41,247 nucleotides of DNA from Erysipelothrix aquatica (GTDB lineage: Bacteria; Bacillota_I; Bacilli_A; Erysipelotrichales; Erysipelotrichaceae), in NCBI RefSeq assembly GCF_009828775.2, contig NZ_WTSY02000019.1:1-41247 (forward strand). Direction: 5' to 3'. Position 1 is the stretch's first letter, and every line of letters begins with the position of its first letter. The notes under the pieces are model-generated. The model worked only from the letters and a program-made list of their open reading frames with translations, made no database searches and was not told the DNA's origin. Shown here one piece after another: positions 10,129 to 16,594 of the stretch. The position numbers and the translations under genes were made by a program.

Positions 10129-10218
10129 GTGGTGGAAGATTTTTATGTGATTTAATATTTGTCAAGATTTTGTGATATGATTATCATACAAATTAATAGT
10201 AAGTATTGGGGTAAGAAT

Positions 10219-11481
10219 ATGGGTAAAATACTGAATTCAAAAGGACGCCTTGAATTTTCATTCAAGGCCTTTAAAAAATGGGTTACGAACTATAAGCTTT
10301 TTAATATGCTCCTGGTTATTGCGTTGGTGTTAGTCGGATATACATTCTGGGATGAACGTCCCAATTCGATGCGAACACCGTTTTACAAAAATACACGCGA
10401 CTACAATAATGTCACGGGAAGTTACGATTTTAATGCGTTTTACGAATTATTGTCACAAGAAAAAGGTGCATCCGTCAAAGATGTACACTTTAAGCTCGAA
10501 ACACCGTATTGTTACGATACCAACGATGTTTCACTGTGCATTAAGGGATACGAACTATTTCAAACAGAAAAACATGTTCCGTTAACATCAGTCTATAAAT
10601 ATAATAAAGCCAGTCACTTTGTAATCGTACGTTTAGAGATTGCAAATAGGCGCGATAATCCAATATCAATAGACAATTTTTATCAACATTATGGTGATGT
10701 TTCAGATTTCACCAGACCGTTAAGAAATGAAGAATTCGAGATTCCTAACAATATAGGAAACTTTGGCCGGGACGACAAATTAAAAGTCGACCAGCATCAA
10801 ACCTATGAAGGCTATTTGCTGTATCCACTCACAGCAGAAGCATACCGCCAACTCTATTTTGAGGGAAGTTACTGGATCAGTATGCCAGATGTTGTGGATA
10901 CATCCAAATTAGATGCGCGAAACCTGATGGGACTATCTGAAGTCATTGAATTACCGATGGTCGAACCTGTCATGGCATCCCATCTCGAAACAGTTACGAA
11001 CTTACCAACAGAACAAACGAAGCGGACATCGAGTTTTTCAAAAGTATCCACTCATTATGAACCCAATGTAACAATCACCAATAGCCAAGAGACTTTGGCT
11101 GTTGAAGTACAGGTAATTGAAGAGGGATATACTGAATACCGTCCATATTATATTTCGAAACGTAAAAACAGATCGTATTTACATGGGAAGACAAACTATC
11201 AGACTGTGAAGGTTCGCCTCACGAATTTAGGAATGCCTTCGATTGATACACAAGTTCTCACCGCATCATTGGACTTGGCATCGAGCAATTTCAAATCAAC
11301 GGGTTATTTGGTTTCAACGCGAATGCAAGTTGAAGCGAATGGTACCGCAGATTTAATCTTTGAGTTTTCTAGGGATGAACGCGGGACCAATGCCCTCATT
11401 CCGAATGAAACATACCGTTTTATTTTATCAAATGACAGAAAGGACATTCTGCTTGAAGGTGAACTCAAGCTAGAACAATAG
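10219..11481 (+). CDS. Membrane-anchored protein with two extracellular DUF4352-like domains
   Basis: This is the first gene of the SPFH/zinc-ribbon operon. The open frame reaches back to 10159, but the ATG at 10219 with GGGGT at 10208-10212 gives a cleaner 420-residue product that starts cytoplasmic (MGKILNSKGRLEF). It has one membrane segment (about residues 29-45, LFNMLLVIALVLVGYTF) and a large outside part. The outside part holds two segments with immunoglobulin-like strand patterns (SHFVIVRLEIANRRDNPISI and YQTVKVRLTNLGMPSID). These resemble DUF4352/telomeric-repeat-type beta sandwiches of Firmicutes lipoproteins. No enzyme motif is visible. It may sense or bind something at the membrane surface on behalf of the three downstream proteins; this is inference. 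Confidence 0.75.
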   Translation: MGKILNSKGRLEFSFKAFKKWVTNYKLFNMLLVIALVLVGYTFWDERPNSMRTPFYKNTRDYNNVTGSYDFNAFYELLSQEKGASVKDVHFKLETPYCYDTNDVSLCIKGYELFQTEKHVPLTSVYKYNKASHFVIVRLEIANRRDNPISIDNFYQHYGDVSDFTRPLRNEEFEIPNNIGNFGRDDKLKVDQHQTYEGYLLYPLTAEAYRQLYFEGSYWISMPDVVDTSKLDARNLMGLSEVIELPMVEPVMASHLETVTNLPTEQTKRTSSFSKVSTHYEPNVTITNSQETLAVEVQVIEEGYTEYRPYYISKRKNRSYLHGKTNYQTVKVRLTNLGMPSIDTQVLTASLDLASSNFKSTGYLVSTRMQVEANGTADLIFEFSRDERGTNALIPNETYRFILSNDRKDILLEGELKLEQ

Positions 11482-11493
11482 GGGGAAAATAAT

Positions 11494-12627
11494 ATGGCAA
11501 TGATCGATATCGTAAAATACGAGGGTGATAATCAAGAATTCGCATGGAAGTTTCCAAATGATGCACTTTCAACAAAATCACAACTCATCGTGAATGAGTC
11601 ACAAGTGGCGGTACTTTTTCGAGGTGGAAAGGCCTATGACATTTATGAACCAGGACGGCATACGCTTAATACTGAAAATATTCCGTTGTTGAATGCAATC
11701 ATCAATTTACCATTTGGTAAAGAATCACCATTCAAAGCTGAAATATGGTATGTCAACATGGCACATGTATTGGATGTCAAATGGGGAACACAGACGCCTG
11801 TGAATATCCAAGATCCGAAATATGGAATTTACGTGCCAGTAAGTGCTTATGGGCAGTTTGGGATGACAATAAACGATCCGAAGACATTTTTGAAAAAGAT
11901 GGTTGGAACAGTACCAAGTTTTGGTCGAGAACATATCACCAAGTATTTCAGAGGGATGTATACCAGTCATGTTAAGGATGAAATTTCGACCTACTTAATT
12001 GAAAAAAGAATTCCAGTTTTAGATTTAGGTGCATACCTGACAGAACTGTCTGCCTTTATGAAACAACAAATGATGTCAGAATTTGATGCGTATGGCATCG
12101 AATTATTGAATTTTTACGTAGAAGACATTAGTACTGATGATGACGATGAAGGCGTTGTTCGATTGAAACAGGCTTTATCAAAACGTGCTGAAATGGATAT
12201 CATTGGTTATGAATATAAAGAAGAAAGAACCTTTGATGCTTTAGTTGGCGCTGCACAAAATGAAGGCAGCACCGGCGGTTTCATGGGAGCCGGTATTGGC
12301 TTGGGCGTAGGAAGTGCGGTTGGACAAAATCTGGGTGCCGCAATGAATGAAGTTACGCAAAGTGTTTTGAAAACTGAGACCCGAACATGCAGTAACTGTA
12401 ACCACCCTGTGAACGAAGGAGATAAGTTTTGCGGTAATTGTGCTCAAATTCTACAAGCTCCAGAACATCGTTGTACATGCGGCGCTGTCGTAGGTGAACA
12501 CCAAAAATTCTGTCACGAATGTGGACAAAGTTTGCACAATAAATGTACGGCATGTGATGCACCCCTCAAGCAAGATGCAAAATTCTGCCCTGATTGTGGA
12601 AAGGCGGTCGTAGATGATGAAGCGTAA
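11494..12627 (+). CDS. SPFH/YdjI-like protein with three C-terminal zinc ribbons
   Basis: Residues 1-240 form an SPFH (stomatin/prohibitin/flotillin) domain of the B. subtilis YdjI/virion-core-like type (FAWKFPNDALSTKSQLIVNESQVAVLFRGG region). These domains assemble into rings at membranes. A glycine-rich linker (about 250-285: GGFMGAGIGLGVGSAVG) leads to three zinc ribbons: Cys299/302/313/316, Cys327/329/340/343 (CxC spacing) and Cys351/354/365/368. YdjI works with PspA-type envelope stress proteins in B. subtilis; no PspA gene is in this window. It starts 12 bases after the membrane protein and overlaps the next gene by 14 bases. Single or double ribbons are usual; three in a row is noteworthy. 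Confidence 0.88.
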   Translation: MAMIDIVKYEGDNQEFAWKFPNDALSTKSQLIVNESQVAVLFRGGKAYDIYEPGRHTLNTENIPLLNAIINLPFGKESPFKAEIWYVNMAHVLDVKWGTQTPVNIQDPKYGIYVPVSAYGQFGMTINDPKTFLKKMVGTVPSFGREHITKYFRGMYTSHVKDEISTYLIEKRIPVLDLGAYLTELSAFMKQQMMSEFDAYGIELLNFYVEDISTDDDDEGVVRLKQALSKRAEMDIIGYEYKEERTFDALVGAAQNEGSTGGFMGAGIGLGVGSAVGQNLGAAMNEVTQSVLKTETRTCSNCNHPVNEGDKFCGNCAQILQAPEHRCTCGAVVGEHQKFCHECGQSLHNKCTACDAPLKQDAKFCPDCGKAVVDDEA

Positions 12628-12970
12628 AGCAGATGTAGCATTGATTGCGGGTATCATATGTATCGCGTTCACGGTCCTCGTGGGTGTGCTCACTGATTTA
12701 CTTGGATCCAGCTTCGTTGTTTGGGTGCTGGTTGCCGAATTCCTAGCGACAGGTTTGACCTACCAATCCCTACAAAAAAATACACTTACCAAAATAGCGG
12801 TAATGCCAGTGATGCTTGTATATGTACTATTAGCAATTGTCTTTGCGACAATTATATACGCCATTCCAAATGTTAGTGAAGCTATTTTACATATTGGCGA
12901 AGCAGCACTACTTGGTGGTGTCATTATCCCTTATTTAGTCATTAGCACAACCGGGAATAATGAGGTATAG
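12614..12970 (+). CDS. Small four-helix membrane protein of SPFH operon
   Basis: I do not recognise this 118-residue protein. It has about four hydrophobic segments with very short loops (ALIAGIICIAFTVLVGVL, FVVWVLVAEFLATGL, IAVMPVMLVYVLLAIVFATIIYAI, AALLGGVIIPYLVI) and no polar catalytic motif. Its start overlaps the end of the SPFH gene (ATG at 12614 or 12617). The next gene begins two bases after its stop, so it belongs to a tightly coupled operon. SPFH proteins often pair with small membrane partners (as in NfeD/stomatin pairs), and this could be the analogous partner, although it lacks an NfeD-type beta domain. Confidence 0.75.
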   Translation: MMKRKADVALIAGIICIAFTVLVGVLTDLLGSSFVVWVLVAEFLATGLTYQSLQKNTLTKIAVMPVMLVYVLLAIVFATIIYAIPNVSEAILHIGEAALLGGVIIPYLVISTTGNNEV

Positions 12971-12972
12971 CT

Positions 12973-13530
12973 ATGGCGAAACTCATTGATCGAAAAAAAC
13001 ATTTACGACGGAGTGAATCTGGTAAGGTACTTAAAAAACAGGCCCTGAGAAACTTGGGAATTGGCGTCTATGCGTTTGGTATGTTTACATGGTATCAACA
13101 AGTATTTGGTGATTATTACTATAGTTATGAGATCGGAAGATATTTTGCATTTGTCTTTATTGCCGTGGGCCTTCTCATGATATACCGAGCAACACGCTAT
13201 AACTTACAAATCGATATGTATAATCAGTATTATTATTGGATTTATCAAAATGAAATGTTTACACTTCACGAACTTGCGACAGCTAGTGAAAAATCAGAAA
13301 CAACAATTATTCGTGAGATTAACACATTAATTAATGATGGCTTTCTCAAAAATATTCATTTGAACACGAAAGAACGAACGATTGAAGGTGCTTTCGTGAC
13401 ATCGGTTAAAGAACAGATTCAACGGAAAGTAATTCGTTGCAGTGGTTGTGGTGCGCGAAATGAAGTTGTAGAAAACGAAACACGAGAATGTGAATATTGT
13501 GGTCGTAAACTTGTGTATGATCATCAATAA
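12973..13530 (+). CDS. Membrane protein with winged-helix and zinc-ribbon domains
   Basis: This 185-residue protein begins with a basic segment (residues 1-26). Two membrane segments follow (about 27-45 and 55-73). Next comes a cytoplasmic winged-helix-like region (EMFTLHELATASEKSETTIIREINTLINDGFLKNIHL, about 94-132). It ends in a zinc ribbon with CSGCG and CEYCG pairs. It looks like a membrane-tethered regulator or scaffold whose ribbon mirrors those of the SPFH protein two genes upstream. It is the last gene of the operon, before the terminator at 13535-13560. No named family can be assigned with confidence. Confidence 0.78.
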   Translation: MAKLIDRKKHLRRSESGKVLKKQALRNLGIGVYAFGMFTWYQQVFGDYYYSYEIGRYFAFVFIAVGLLMIYRATRYNLQIDMYNQYYYWIYQNEMFTLHELATASEKSETTIIREINTLINDGFLKNIHLNTKERTIEGAFVTSVKEQIQRKVIRCSGCGARNEVVENETRECEYCGRKLVYDHQ

Positions 13531-13534
13531 AAAT

Positions 13535-13560
13535 AACCCACTCAATACCTTGAGTGGGTT
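13535..13560 (+). terminator. Terminator of SPFH operon
   Basis: AACCCACTCAA and TTGAGTGGGTT form a perfect 11-bp stem around TACC, followed by GTATTTTTG. Confidence 0.88.
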
Positions 13561-13575
13561 GTATTTTTGCTAGAA

Positions 13576-13613: not shown

Positions 13614-13718
13614 ATCATGGGGCGACCGACGGGACTTGAACCCGCGAGTGCCGGAGCCACAACCCGGTGCGTTAACCAACTTCGCCACGATCGCCATGTG
13701 CTTTGACATTATAGCCCA
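13614..13718. repeat. 105-bp direct repeat containing tRNA-His, copy 1
   Basis: Identical to 16490-16594 except for two bases. It includes the whole tRNA-His gene and its -10 element. The distance between copies is 2876 bp. Confidence 0.9.
13618..13695 (-). tRNA. tRNA-His (GTG), copy 1
   Basis: Minus-strand cloverleaf with anticodon loop TTGTGGC, anticodon GTG (His). The acceptor stem has the extra G-1 pair expected for tRNA-His (GGCGATCG with CGGTCGCC), followed by an encoded CCA. The T-arm reads TTCAAGT. It is almost identical to the copy at 16494-16571, differing by one acceptor-stem base. Confidence 0.95.
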
Positions 13719-13882: not shown

Positions 13883-14767
13883 ATGACTAATTTTGATTTA
13901 ATCCAACTTATTAATGAAGGCGTACCATCAGTCCATATTGAATGCGACCATGACACCTTTCTCGAAATTCAAAAAAAACTGCCACAATCAAATTTGATTA
14001 CAGTAGCATTTGATGATGGCATGTATGAATTTATGAAAGTCGGAAAACTTTTGAATTTTTATAAAGATATTAATAACGCTTCTGTCGATGTTTACGATGT
14101 TATGACATGTTTTGATTTGCATCGCTATACCCAACAAAAAGTATCGAAACTTGAAGCAGGGGTTAAACGCCGGCTTATGATTGCGCAGGCTTTATTCATG
14201 AATCCCAAACTCATTCTTATTGAAGACCCTCTCGCAAACCTCGATAAAGAATCAGCCAAAATAATCGTAGGTGCACTTGAAACAATCAGTGAAACAACAC
14301 GGGTCATAACCACATCCCCATCATTTCGCAATGTCTGTTTGATGCCTGGTAATTTATATTACAGTCGTAACGATACAATTATGCCAATTTATGAGTCGGT
14401 CCAAAATATCATGCCAACCATCCAAACTAACAATACGCTTGTCGTGAAGAGTAAAGGCAATGAATATGTTATTGATATTCAAGATATTTTTTATGCGGAG
14501 AGCATCGATGCAGTGACGCATCTCTATGTAAAAAACTCGCTGATTCCGACCCAGTTCACTTTGGAAGAGCTGGAGACACAACTGCAAGCATATCAATTTT
14601 TTAGATGCCATCGCTCGTATTTGGTTAGTATTCCAAAAGTTACGGAAATCCAACAATGGACCCGTAACAGTTATGTATTAGTCTTATCAGGCCAAAGTGA
14701 TGTGGAAATTCCACTCAGCAAGCGCCGCTATAGTGAGTTCAAAGCCGTGCTCCACTCAGGGCAATAA
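13883..14767 (+). CDS. Degenerate ABC ATPase-LytTR fusion regulator
   Basis: This 294-residue protein joins two parts. Residues about 1-175 resemble an ABC ATPase. They keep a signature-like KLEAGVKRRLMIAQALF, a Walker B-like KLILIEDPLANLDKES and a DLHRY region, but have no Walker A P-loop where one should lie near the N-terminus, so it probably cannot bind ATP normally. Residues about 195-292 are a LytTR DNA-binding domain (DIQDIFYAESIDAVTHLYV, FFRCHRSYLVSIPKVTEI, LVLSGQSDVEIPLSKRRYSEFK). Such fusions regulate neighbouring ABC-2 transporters in Firmicutes, and here an ATPase/permease pair follows 124 bases downstream. An extended -10 (TGATACAAT, 13851-13859) precedes it. The ATPase-like part may sense the transporter state; this is inference. 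Confidence 0.85.
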   Translation: MTNFDLIQLINEGVPSVHIECDHDTFLEIQKKLPQSNLITVAFDDGMYEFMKVGKLLNFYKDINNASVDVYDVMTCFDLHRYTQQKVSKLEAGVKRRLMIAQALFMNPKLILIEDPLANLDKESAKIIVGALETISETTRVITTSPSFRNVCLMPGNLYYSRNDTIMPIYESVQNIMPTIQTNNTLVVKSKGNEYVIDIQDIFYAESIDAVTHLYVKNSLIPTQFTLEELETQLQAYQFFRCHRSYLVSIPKVTEIQQWTRNSYVLVLSGQSDVEIPLSKRRYSEFKAVLHSGQ

Positions 14768-14891: not shown

Positions 14892-15740
14892 ATGAACAAA
14901 ATCGTATCCATTAACGATTTATCAATCACATTCAACACTAAAAAAGTTTTGAAACACATGTCCTTTGATGTGTACGAAGGTGAAATATTTGGTTTCTTAG
15001 GACCGAGCGGTGCGGGTAAAACTACAACGATTAAAGCCCTAACGAAACAATTACGTGTTAGTCCAAATACAATTGAACTATTTGGGAAGCCGTTAGAAAA
15101 TCATAATGCATCGGTCTATGATCGTCTTGGGATTATGACAGACAGTAATGATGTATATGATGCACTCAGTGTATACGACAATTTGAAATTCTTCGCAAAT
15201 CTAAAAAATGTTGACCTAAAACAAGTCGATCAACTGCTTAGAGAAATTGGTCTTTATGATGATCGGAAAACACTGGCTAAAAAGCTATCTCGCGGTATGA
15301 GACAACGTCTTATCCTCGCTACCGCCCTCATTCATCAGCCAGCACTGCTTTTCCTTGATGAACCAACCGCAGCCTTGGATCCGAAAACAACGGCTGATAT
15401 TCATATACTTTTTCAACGTATTAACCAAAATGGCACGACGATCTTCTTAACAACACATTCAATGGAAGAAGCAGACAAGTTGTGTGATCGTATCGCATTT
15501 CTTGATAACGGTACAATTGTTGAAATGGGAACATCCGAAGCGCTGAAACTAAAATATGCCCAAAATGAAGTTGTTGTTCACTATAACGACGGTACACACA
15601 AACGGGTAACTAAAGACCAACAAGGGCTCAAAGAACTTGCGAATGAAACTAAAATTATTAACACAATTCATTCCATCGAGCCTAACTTAGAAACAATATT
15701 CTTAGCAGTAACAGGGAGAGATAATTATGACAATGCGTAA
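14892..15740 (+). CDS. ABC-2 transporter ATPase
   Basis: An intact ATPase subunit of 282 residues. It has Walker A GPSGAGKTT (about 36-44), signature LSRGMRQRL, Walker B ALLFLDEPTAALDP and switch TTHSMEEA. A C-terminal extension (about 215-282) is typical of drug/bacteriocin-export type (CcmA/BcrA-like) ATPases. AGGAGG at 14879-14884 supports the ATG. The permease starts 13 bases before its stop. It sits downstream of the LytTR-fusion regulator, and the whole module lies between two tRNA-His copies. Export of an antimicrobial or lipid-like substrate is the usual role of the family; the substrate here is unknown. Confidence 0.92.
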   Translation: MNKIVSINDLSITFNTKKVLKHMSFDVYEGEIFGFLGPSGAGKTTTIKALTKQLRVSPNTIELFGKPLENHNASVYDRLGIMTDSNDVYDALSVYDNLKFFANLKNVDLKQVDQLLREIGLYDDRKTLAKKLSRGMRQRLILATALIHQPALLFLDEPTAALDPKTTADIHILFQRINQNGTTIFLTTHSMEEADKLCDRIAFLDNGTIVEMGTSEALKLKYAQNEVVVHYNDGTHKRVTKDQQGLKELANETKIINTIHSIEPNLETIFLAVTGRDNYDNA

Positions 15741-16446
15741 ATGGAAAGCACTCATTCAAAAAGACTTTAAACTAACATTCAGCAATAAAAGTTTCCTGGT
15801 CATCATGCTTATGCCAGTAATCTTTGCAGTTTTTTATACAACCATCCTACCGATGCCACCAGGACCCGAAGCCGATATGATTATCTTAATTATGATTACG
15901 GTTCTGGGCTTAATGATGCTAGGTTCCTCTTCTATGGGTATGTCCATTGCAGAAGAAAAAGAAAAAAAGACCCTACGATCACTTATGCTATCAGATGTAT
16001 CAGGATTTGAATTCCTAGTGAGCAAGATGATTGTTGTCACGATCCTTTTTACATTAATACAAGTCGTGTGTTTCCTCATTGTGGGAGTTGCCATGAGTTA
16101 TTTACCTTATTATATATTGTTGGTTTTTATGACAGTACTTTCATTATTGTTTATCAGCTCGATTATTGGTTTGATTGCACCAAATCAACAAGCTGTTGGA
16201 ATCTATGGATTACCTGTTATGTTATTGACGGCAGCACCAATGTTTTCCATTATGGGTGATAACCCTGTAGTGTTAACAATCAGTAAGTTTTTACCGACAG
16301 GTCCTATCACACTCATGCTATTTCGTGAAGTAGACCCAAGCTTGGTGTATCCGAGTTGGTTGGGGTTTGGATCAATGATTGTATGGATTATCATCGCTGT
16401 ACTCGCATTTACGACTTATTACAAACGAAAACAACTCGATAACTAG
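15727..16446 (+). CDS. ABC-2 transporter permease
   Basis: A 239-residue membrane protein with six predicted hydrophobic segments and a short cytoplasmic N-terminus (MTMRKWKALIQKDFKLTFSN). The motif EEKEKKTLRSLMLSDVSGFEFLVSK between segments 2 and 3 is the characteristic ABC2_membrane coupling loop. GGGAGAG lies 7 bases before the ATG at 15727; an internal ATG at 15733 is an alternative start. It pairs with the ATPase immediately upstream and ends at the terminator at 16458-16481. Confidence 0.9.
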   Translation: MTMRKWKALIQKDFKLTFSNKSFLVIMLMPVIFAVFYTTILPMPPGPEADMIILIMITVLGLMMLGSSSMGMSIAEEKEKKTLRSLMLSDVSGFEFLVSKMIVVTILFTLIQVVCFLIVGVAMSYLPYYILLVFMTVLSLLFISSIIGLIAPNQQAVGIYGLPVMLLTAAPMFSIMGDNPVVLTISKFLPTGPITLMLFREVDPSLVYPSWLGFGSMIVWIIIAVLAFTTYYKRKQLDN

Positions 16447-16489: not shown

Positions 16490-16594
16490 ATCATGGGGCG
16501 ACCGACGGGACTTGAACCCGCGAGTGCCGGAGCCACAACCCGGTGCGTTAACCAACTTCGCCACGACCGCCATATGCTTTGACATTATAGCCCA
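16490..16594. repeat. 105-bp direct repeat containing tRNA-His, copy 2
   Basis: Second copy of the repeat at 13614-13718, in the same orientation, with two mismatches. Flanking DNA is unrelated apart from the -35 hexamer. Confidence 0.9.
16494..16571 (-). tRNA. tRNA-His (GTG), copy 2
   Basis: Same cloverleaf as the copy at 13618-13695, with anticodon GTG, G-1 and encoded CCA. One acceptor-stem base differs (GGCGGTCG instead of GGCGATCG), turning an A-U pair into a G-U pair. Confidence 0.95.

Follow-up and report, generated by a model that had tools for sequence, protein, structure and literature searches.

An operon of Erysipelothrix aquatica with a conserved and apparently undescribed SPFH-zinc-ribbon membrane core

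Four genes on the + strand, in the following called A, B, C and D, abut at positions 10219–13530 of the window, the 41,247-nt stretch of Erysipelothrix aquatica DNA analysed here (NZ_WTSY02000019.1, contig 19 of the 2.15-Mb genome). Gene B encodes an SPFH protein with zinc ribbons, and the other three genes encode predicted membrane proteins. Our analysis identified B-C-D as a real, conserved variant of the SPFH-zinc-ribbon membrane systems that is apparently undescribed. With a probability of roughly one half, the products of the operon form an SPFH scaffold that is anchored in the membrane, stands alone and serves in envelope stress or in the upkeep of membrane proteins.

Gene A (10219–11481, 420 amino acids) is separated from B (11494–12627, 377 amino acids) by 12 base pairs (bp), the start of C (12614–12970, 118 amino acids) overlaps the end of B by 14 bp, and D (12973–13530, 185 amino acids) follows after 2 bp. 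All four open reading frames that a preliminary description of the window had joined into one operon are present on the + strand, and their order is kept in related genomes. In comparison with E. anatis, dN/dS was approximately 0.09 for A, 0.02 for B, 0.14 for C and 0.02 for D with dS near saturation, pointing to purifying selection on all four genes.

To follow the genes beyond the genus, an alignment of B was scanned against 84,980 species genomes. This yielded 80 loci (in this text, loci carry L numbers and genomes G numbers) in Clostridia, Paenibacillus, Litchfieldia (Bacillaceae), Streptococcus acidominimus, a spirochaete and various metagenome-assembled genomes (MAGs). Among the 69 B loci with at least 1.3 kb of DNA downstream of B, D followed in 62, at least 48 times as B-C-D and in nine cases with D in tandem; the control, D upstream of B, was found in 0 of 78 loci. 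All three genomes with a B match above 500 bits in a phylum sample of 295 genomes (our own included, as well as L167) have D at the expected distance, and B-C-D is also present in a sample of Clostridia (L163). Gene A had no counterpart in 47 relatives outside the genus. The gene neighbourhoods thus point to B-C-D, not all four genes, as the conserved unit outside the genus; A is specific for Erysipelothrix and was rejected as part of a general core. The preliminary description had proposed to look for the four genes together in other genomes, with and without the phage shock protein PspA; outside the genus, B, C and D co-occur, without A.

Within Erysipelothrix, A, B and D are found together and in order in 9 of 13 genomes (our own included), and the surroundings of the set vary among them. 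Eight genomes of the genus besides our own share the A-B-(C)-D synteny, with C missing in one species (G012/L072). Overall, the set is strongly conserved in a vertical pattern.

The B protein was assigned to the Pfam family Band_7_1 (PF13421) with an E-value of 1.4e-49 (169.1 bits, gathering cut-off 24). It lacks a transmembrane (TM) segment and has a glycine-rich linker followed by three C-terminal zinc ribbons matching PF12773 (E 9.9e-14), in agreement with the earlier reading of this protein. Its counterpart in E. anatis shows 92% identity, and an alignment of ten B relatives showed a strongly conserved SPFH core, with fewer ribbons in one species. The CxC spacing of the middle ribbon, which had been singled out as distinctive, is real but confined to the three nearest species, whereas the others have CxxC; because of this restriction we consider it ordinary drift and rejected it as a defining feature. 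B may belong to one of the small subfamilies SPFH6-12, which lack documented members in PMC2636767.

The second widely conserved protein, D, combines a TM hairpin, a winged helix and a C-terminal four-cysteine zinc ribbon. The AlphaFold2 model (mean predicted local distance difference test score, pLDDT, 86.6) displays the two-helix hairpin, the winged helix (residues ~94–139) and the ribbon. In structure comparisons, the modelled winged helix was closest to the PCI domains of Rpn6/Rpn7 (proteasome lid), COP9 and TREX-2, followed closely by DDRGK1 (Z 7.3–9.6 over 55–61 amino acids, root-mean-square deviation 1.6–2.3). A profile search against PDB sequences likewise gave DDRGK1 (E 1.8e-4) and Rpn7 (E 0.03), and sub-threshold Pfam matches to DDRGK occurred in D relatives. 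The recognition helix is, on average, slightly acidic (mean net charge -0.63, n=65), which together with the PCI-like fold makes DNA binding by D unlikely; its winged helix is more likely protein-docking than DNA-reading. The architecture proposed in the preliminary description, a membrane protein with a winged helix and its own zinc ribbon, stands, with a winged helix that most resembles the PCI/DDRGK type. The second TM helix and the winged helix of D together match the XpaC profile (hhalign 98.8%, E 9.4e-17, 83 columns). This match indicates homology of the D module to its counterpart in XpaC, visible only from profile to profile, as single-sequence BLASTP of the window's D against XpaC returned nothing.

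For C, four TM segments were predicted, also in its orthologues, as previously supposed, and no Pfam family was found above the cut-off. Many relatives of C are longer, with an additional cytoplasmic tail of ~90 amino acids that contains a recurring YSD motif and belongs to no Pfam family (e.g., L080, 9325–9999). The A protein was modelled with moderate confidence (pLDDT 67.7) as an N-terminal TM helix (residues ~22–45) and two extracytoplasmic beta-rich domains, consistent with the earlier description. In this model, the first domain resembles Listeria 4eae (Z 11.7) and B. subtilis YjhA (3cfu, Z 9.2), and the second FlaF/FlaG-type sandwiches (Z 7.3–9). The best match of A to the Pfam families DUF4352 and DUF5067 reached 24.1 bits, below the cut-off of 25.9; the sub-threshold DUF4352 matches agree with the model comparison, and A may be called DUF4352-like. 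Foldseek against PDB returned mostly long multi-domain beta matches of low TM-score, plus 4eae.

Other TM surface proteins are encoded next to B elsewhere, with DUF5067 downstream in S. acidominimus and with DUF6591 upstream in L117 and L138. In loci of termite-gut 'Deltaproteobacteria' MAGs (L118, 9853–12114; L132, 4668–6926; L136, 9521–13028; L091, 13919–15964), in place of D, the B-type SPFH gene has genes for large ribbon-TM proteins nearby, which are YdjG-like and bear apparent MORN-like repeats. A B neighbour in Lachnospiraceae (L124, 9199–11217) has an N-terminal ribbon, a TM segment and a long leucine-rich-repeat-like region. Long candidate D fusions from the termite-gut MAGs and a Lachnospiraceae MAG were rejected as D proteins; they are ribbon-TM proteins, several of them weakly YdjG-like, with tails judged MORN-like or leucine-rich by eye.

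Based on these features, we infer the following arrangement. B, having no TM segment of its own, would oligomerise via its SPFH domain at the membrane's inner face, where the integral proteins D and C would hold it. The C-terminal ribbons of B, the ribbon of D and its PCI-like winged helix would serve as docking surfaces. A, or elsewhere the TM proteins with DUF5067 or DUF6591, would contribute an extracytoplasmic portion for sensing the envelope or making contact with it. Under envelope stress, the complex might then maintain membrane proteins or the state of the membrane, PspA not being its effector; this role is suggested by the analogy with YdjGHI and XpaC/TelA.

Several observations weigh against this scaffold. 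D is present without an adjacent B in L162 and L168, so the coupling of B and D is strong, not absolute. The composition is flexible, as at some loci C is missing or D is replaced by YdjG-like ribbon proteins. The set is missing from 4 of the 13 Erysipelothrix genomes (G001, G003, G008 and G011, two of which are incomplete assemblies) and is therefore dispensable. Finally, Foldseek found no match of D against PDB below an E-value of 0.001, with DtxR/MntR folds among the matches, and the choice between a PCI and a DtxR/MntR-type fold rests on a modelled domain of ~60 residues.

Within the proteasome lid, COP9 and the UFM1 ligase, domains of the PCI and DDRGK1 kind function as adaptors. The resemblance of D to these folds suits a platform for membrane-protein quality control or a protease adaptor, in which B-C-D would gather damaged membrane proteins via the PCI-like domain and the ribbons in a manner similar to HflK/C and prohibitin with FtsH. 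Several SPFH families act with FtsH (PMC2636767). There is, however, no protease gene in the conserved core, although no search was aimed at protease linkage, and we consider such a platform unlikely, if conceivable.

Another possibility is a system of the ydjFGHI/PspA type from which PspA has been lost, or which draws on a PspA encoded elsewhere. The likeness to B. subtilis ydjGHI, already seen in the preliminary description, is genuine: YdjI is a soluble SPFH-ribbon protein whose membrane localisation needs two TM partners and whose loss lowers membrane fluidity (PMC8581546), and B similarly is a soluble SPFH protein with C-terminal zinc ribbons beside TM proteins that presumably recruit it to the membrane. 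Moreover, PspA was above the cut-off in 21 of 43 other B-carrying genomes, mainly Paenibacillus, which carry it away from B. However, PspA (PF04012) was found in 0 of 13 Erysipelothrix genomes, while the same search detected it in 9 of 14 control genomes; we therefore rejected a PspA hidden elsewhere in the genome. It was also absent from the flanks of all 80 B loci. In a maximum-likelihood tree, 32 B proteins and two SPFH proteins from YdjI loci fell on separate branches with a support of 100/100, with long-branch warnings. The TPM domain (of YdjH) had no match in A, C or D, the YdjG body none in C or D, and the operon lacks a YdjG-type protein with an N-terminal ribbon. Both systems coexist in Litchfieldia, with B-C-D at L135 and PspA-YdjG-SPFH at a locus of its own (L148). 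A locus of the PspA-SPFH-YdjG-YdjH type was also found in a relative (L064), with a TPM match of 2.6e-8. A ydj-type system is largely refuted for Erysipelothrix and in general quite improbable. By the tested features B-C-D is not a member of ydjFGHI, though it probably works like it.

Similarly doubtful is a role of D as a transcription regulator bound to the membrane, in which the winged helix would contact DNA and A, B and C would form the sensory apparatus. The winged helix is indeed joined to a TM hairpin, HTH_36 and Lrs14 matched D weakly, and the DtxR/MntR folds mentioned above point in this direction. Yet the recognition helix is acidic on average, PCI and DDRGK agree better in profile and structure, and the module sits within XpaC, so that a DNA-binding regulator is disfavoured. 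A role in anti-phage or other defence, raised in the preliminary description and hinted at by a weak match of D to a CARF-wH model (E 2.3e-4), is very improbable and was rejected together with a mobile linkage, as PADLOC 2.0 was otherwise empty (no match for A, B and C, for D only the winged-helix stretches of CARF/CasR models), B matches were at most 26% identical on phages and at most 37% on plasmids, without a close relative in either, and the inheritance within Erysipelothrix appears vertical.

The operon sets SPFH-zinc-ribbon membrane scaffolds apart from PspA. Many Gram-positive bacteria share the B-C-D core, often in the absence of PspA; because many bacteria keep an SPFH-ribbon scaffold without a genomic PspA, such proteins must have a PspA-independent job. 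The operon also links poorly understood envelope families, namely SPFH-ribbon, XpaC/TelA and the DUF4352/5067/6591 surface proteins, in one testable module, and it provides a genomic context for a bacterial TM-anchored PCI/DDRGK-like domain. More speculatively, B-C-D could be a widespread and undescribed membrane machine of bacteria, coupling an SPFH assembly to a TM-anchored adaptor of the PCI/DDRGK type whose module is shared with XpaC/TelA. Such a machine, maybe a relative of the eukaryotic and archaeal winged-helix scaffolds of the PCI/ESCRT-II type, would handle membrane proteins without PspA.

Upstream of A lies a promoter-like site on the + strand (TTGTCA-17-TATCAT, 10159–10187) that is sigma-70-like by a 10/12 consensus match alone, which is not functional evidence. 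Directly after D, a terminator-like hairpin (13533–13562, + strand) has a 13-pair stem with 5 GC pairs followed by ATTTTTG, again a consensus-type match only. The operon is flanked by a GNAT gene upstream, and downstream by a tRNA-His gene and a LytTR/ABC group. In this group, an ABC-ATPase-like segment is fused to a LytTR DNA-binding domain (13883–14767), next to an ABC transporter pair (14892–16446). Two tRNA-His(GTG) genes on the - strand (13618–13694 and 16494–16570) bracket the group and may mark the boundary of a duplication or insertion.

No description of B-C-D was found in the open-licence literature searched, including surveys that cover ydjFGHI, SPFH operons linked to NfeD and SPFH-ribbon loci of archaea (PMC11237479, PMC2636767, PMC10936438), and within this scope the suggestion of an undescribed system holds. 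Among known systems, the envelope-stress pair XpaC-TelA (PF10112/PF05816) shares with D the module of the second TM helix and the winged helix. A Listeria telA mutant is more susceptible to nisin, and xpaC and telA were among the genes induced by membrane-protein overproduction in a CesSR study of Lactococcus (PMC12791056, PMC3139573). XpaC-type proteins with this module are encoded adjacent to telA genes in L157 (2373–3542), L158 (2134–3468), L160 (2301–3428) and L161 (2146–3438); PF10112 was confirmed in the first three, where the winged helix corresponds to no named Pfam domain. D differs in lacking the Halogen_Hydrol domain and having a zinc ribbon in its place, PF10112 had no match in D or anywhere in the genus, and no telA lies beside the operon, whose neighbours are GNAT, LytTR and ABC genes. 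By these features, the operon is not a member of XpaC/TelA. The archaeal Meth_adaptin ESCRT loci (PMC10936438) encode ribbon, TM and beta-sandwich proteins in the vicinity of an SPFH-coiled coil-zinc ribbon protein; the likeness is thematic, and their Vps4 and ESCRT-III/PspA are not in the B operon. The NfeD-SPFH (flotillin/stomatin) operons likewise place an SPFH gene beside a small membrane protein. Here, however, NfeD_membrane matches stayed below the threshold (3 of 10 D members, best E 0.0057), and B, which carries ribbons, lacks a membrane segment. DDRGK1 is itself TM-anchored. D resembles the DDRGK1 and PCI subunits (Rpn6/7, COP9, TREX-2) in the modelled winged-helix fold, at a marginal sequence match, and it is set apart from them as a bacterial protein that joins this domain to a TM hairpin and to a zinc ribbon of the Rpb12-like kind.

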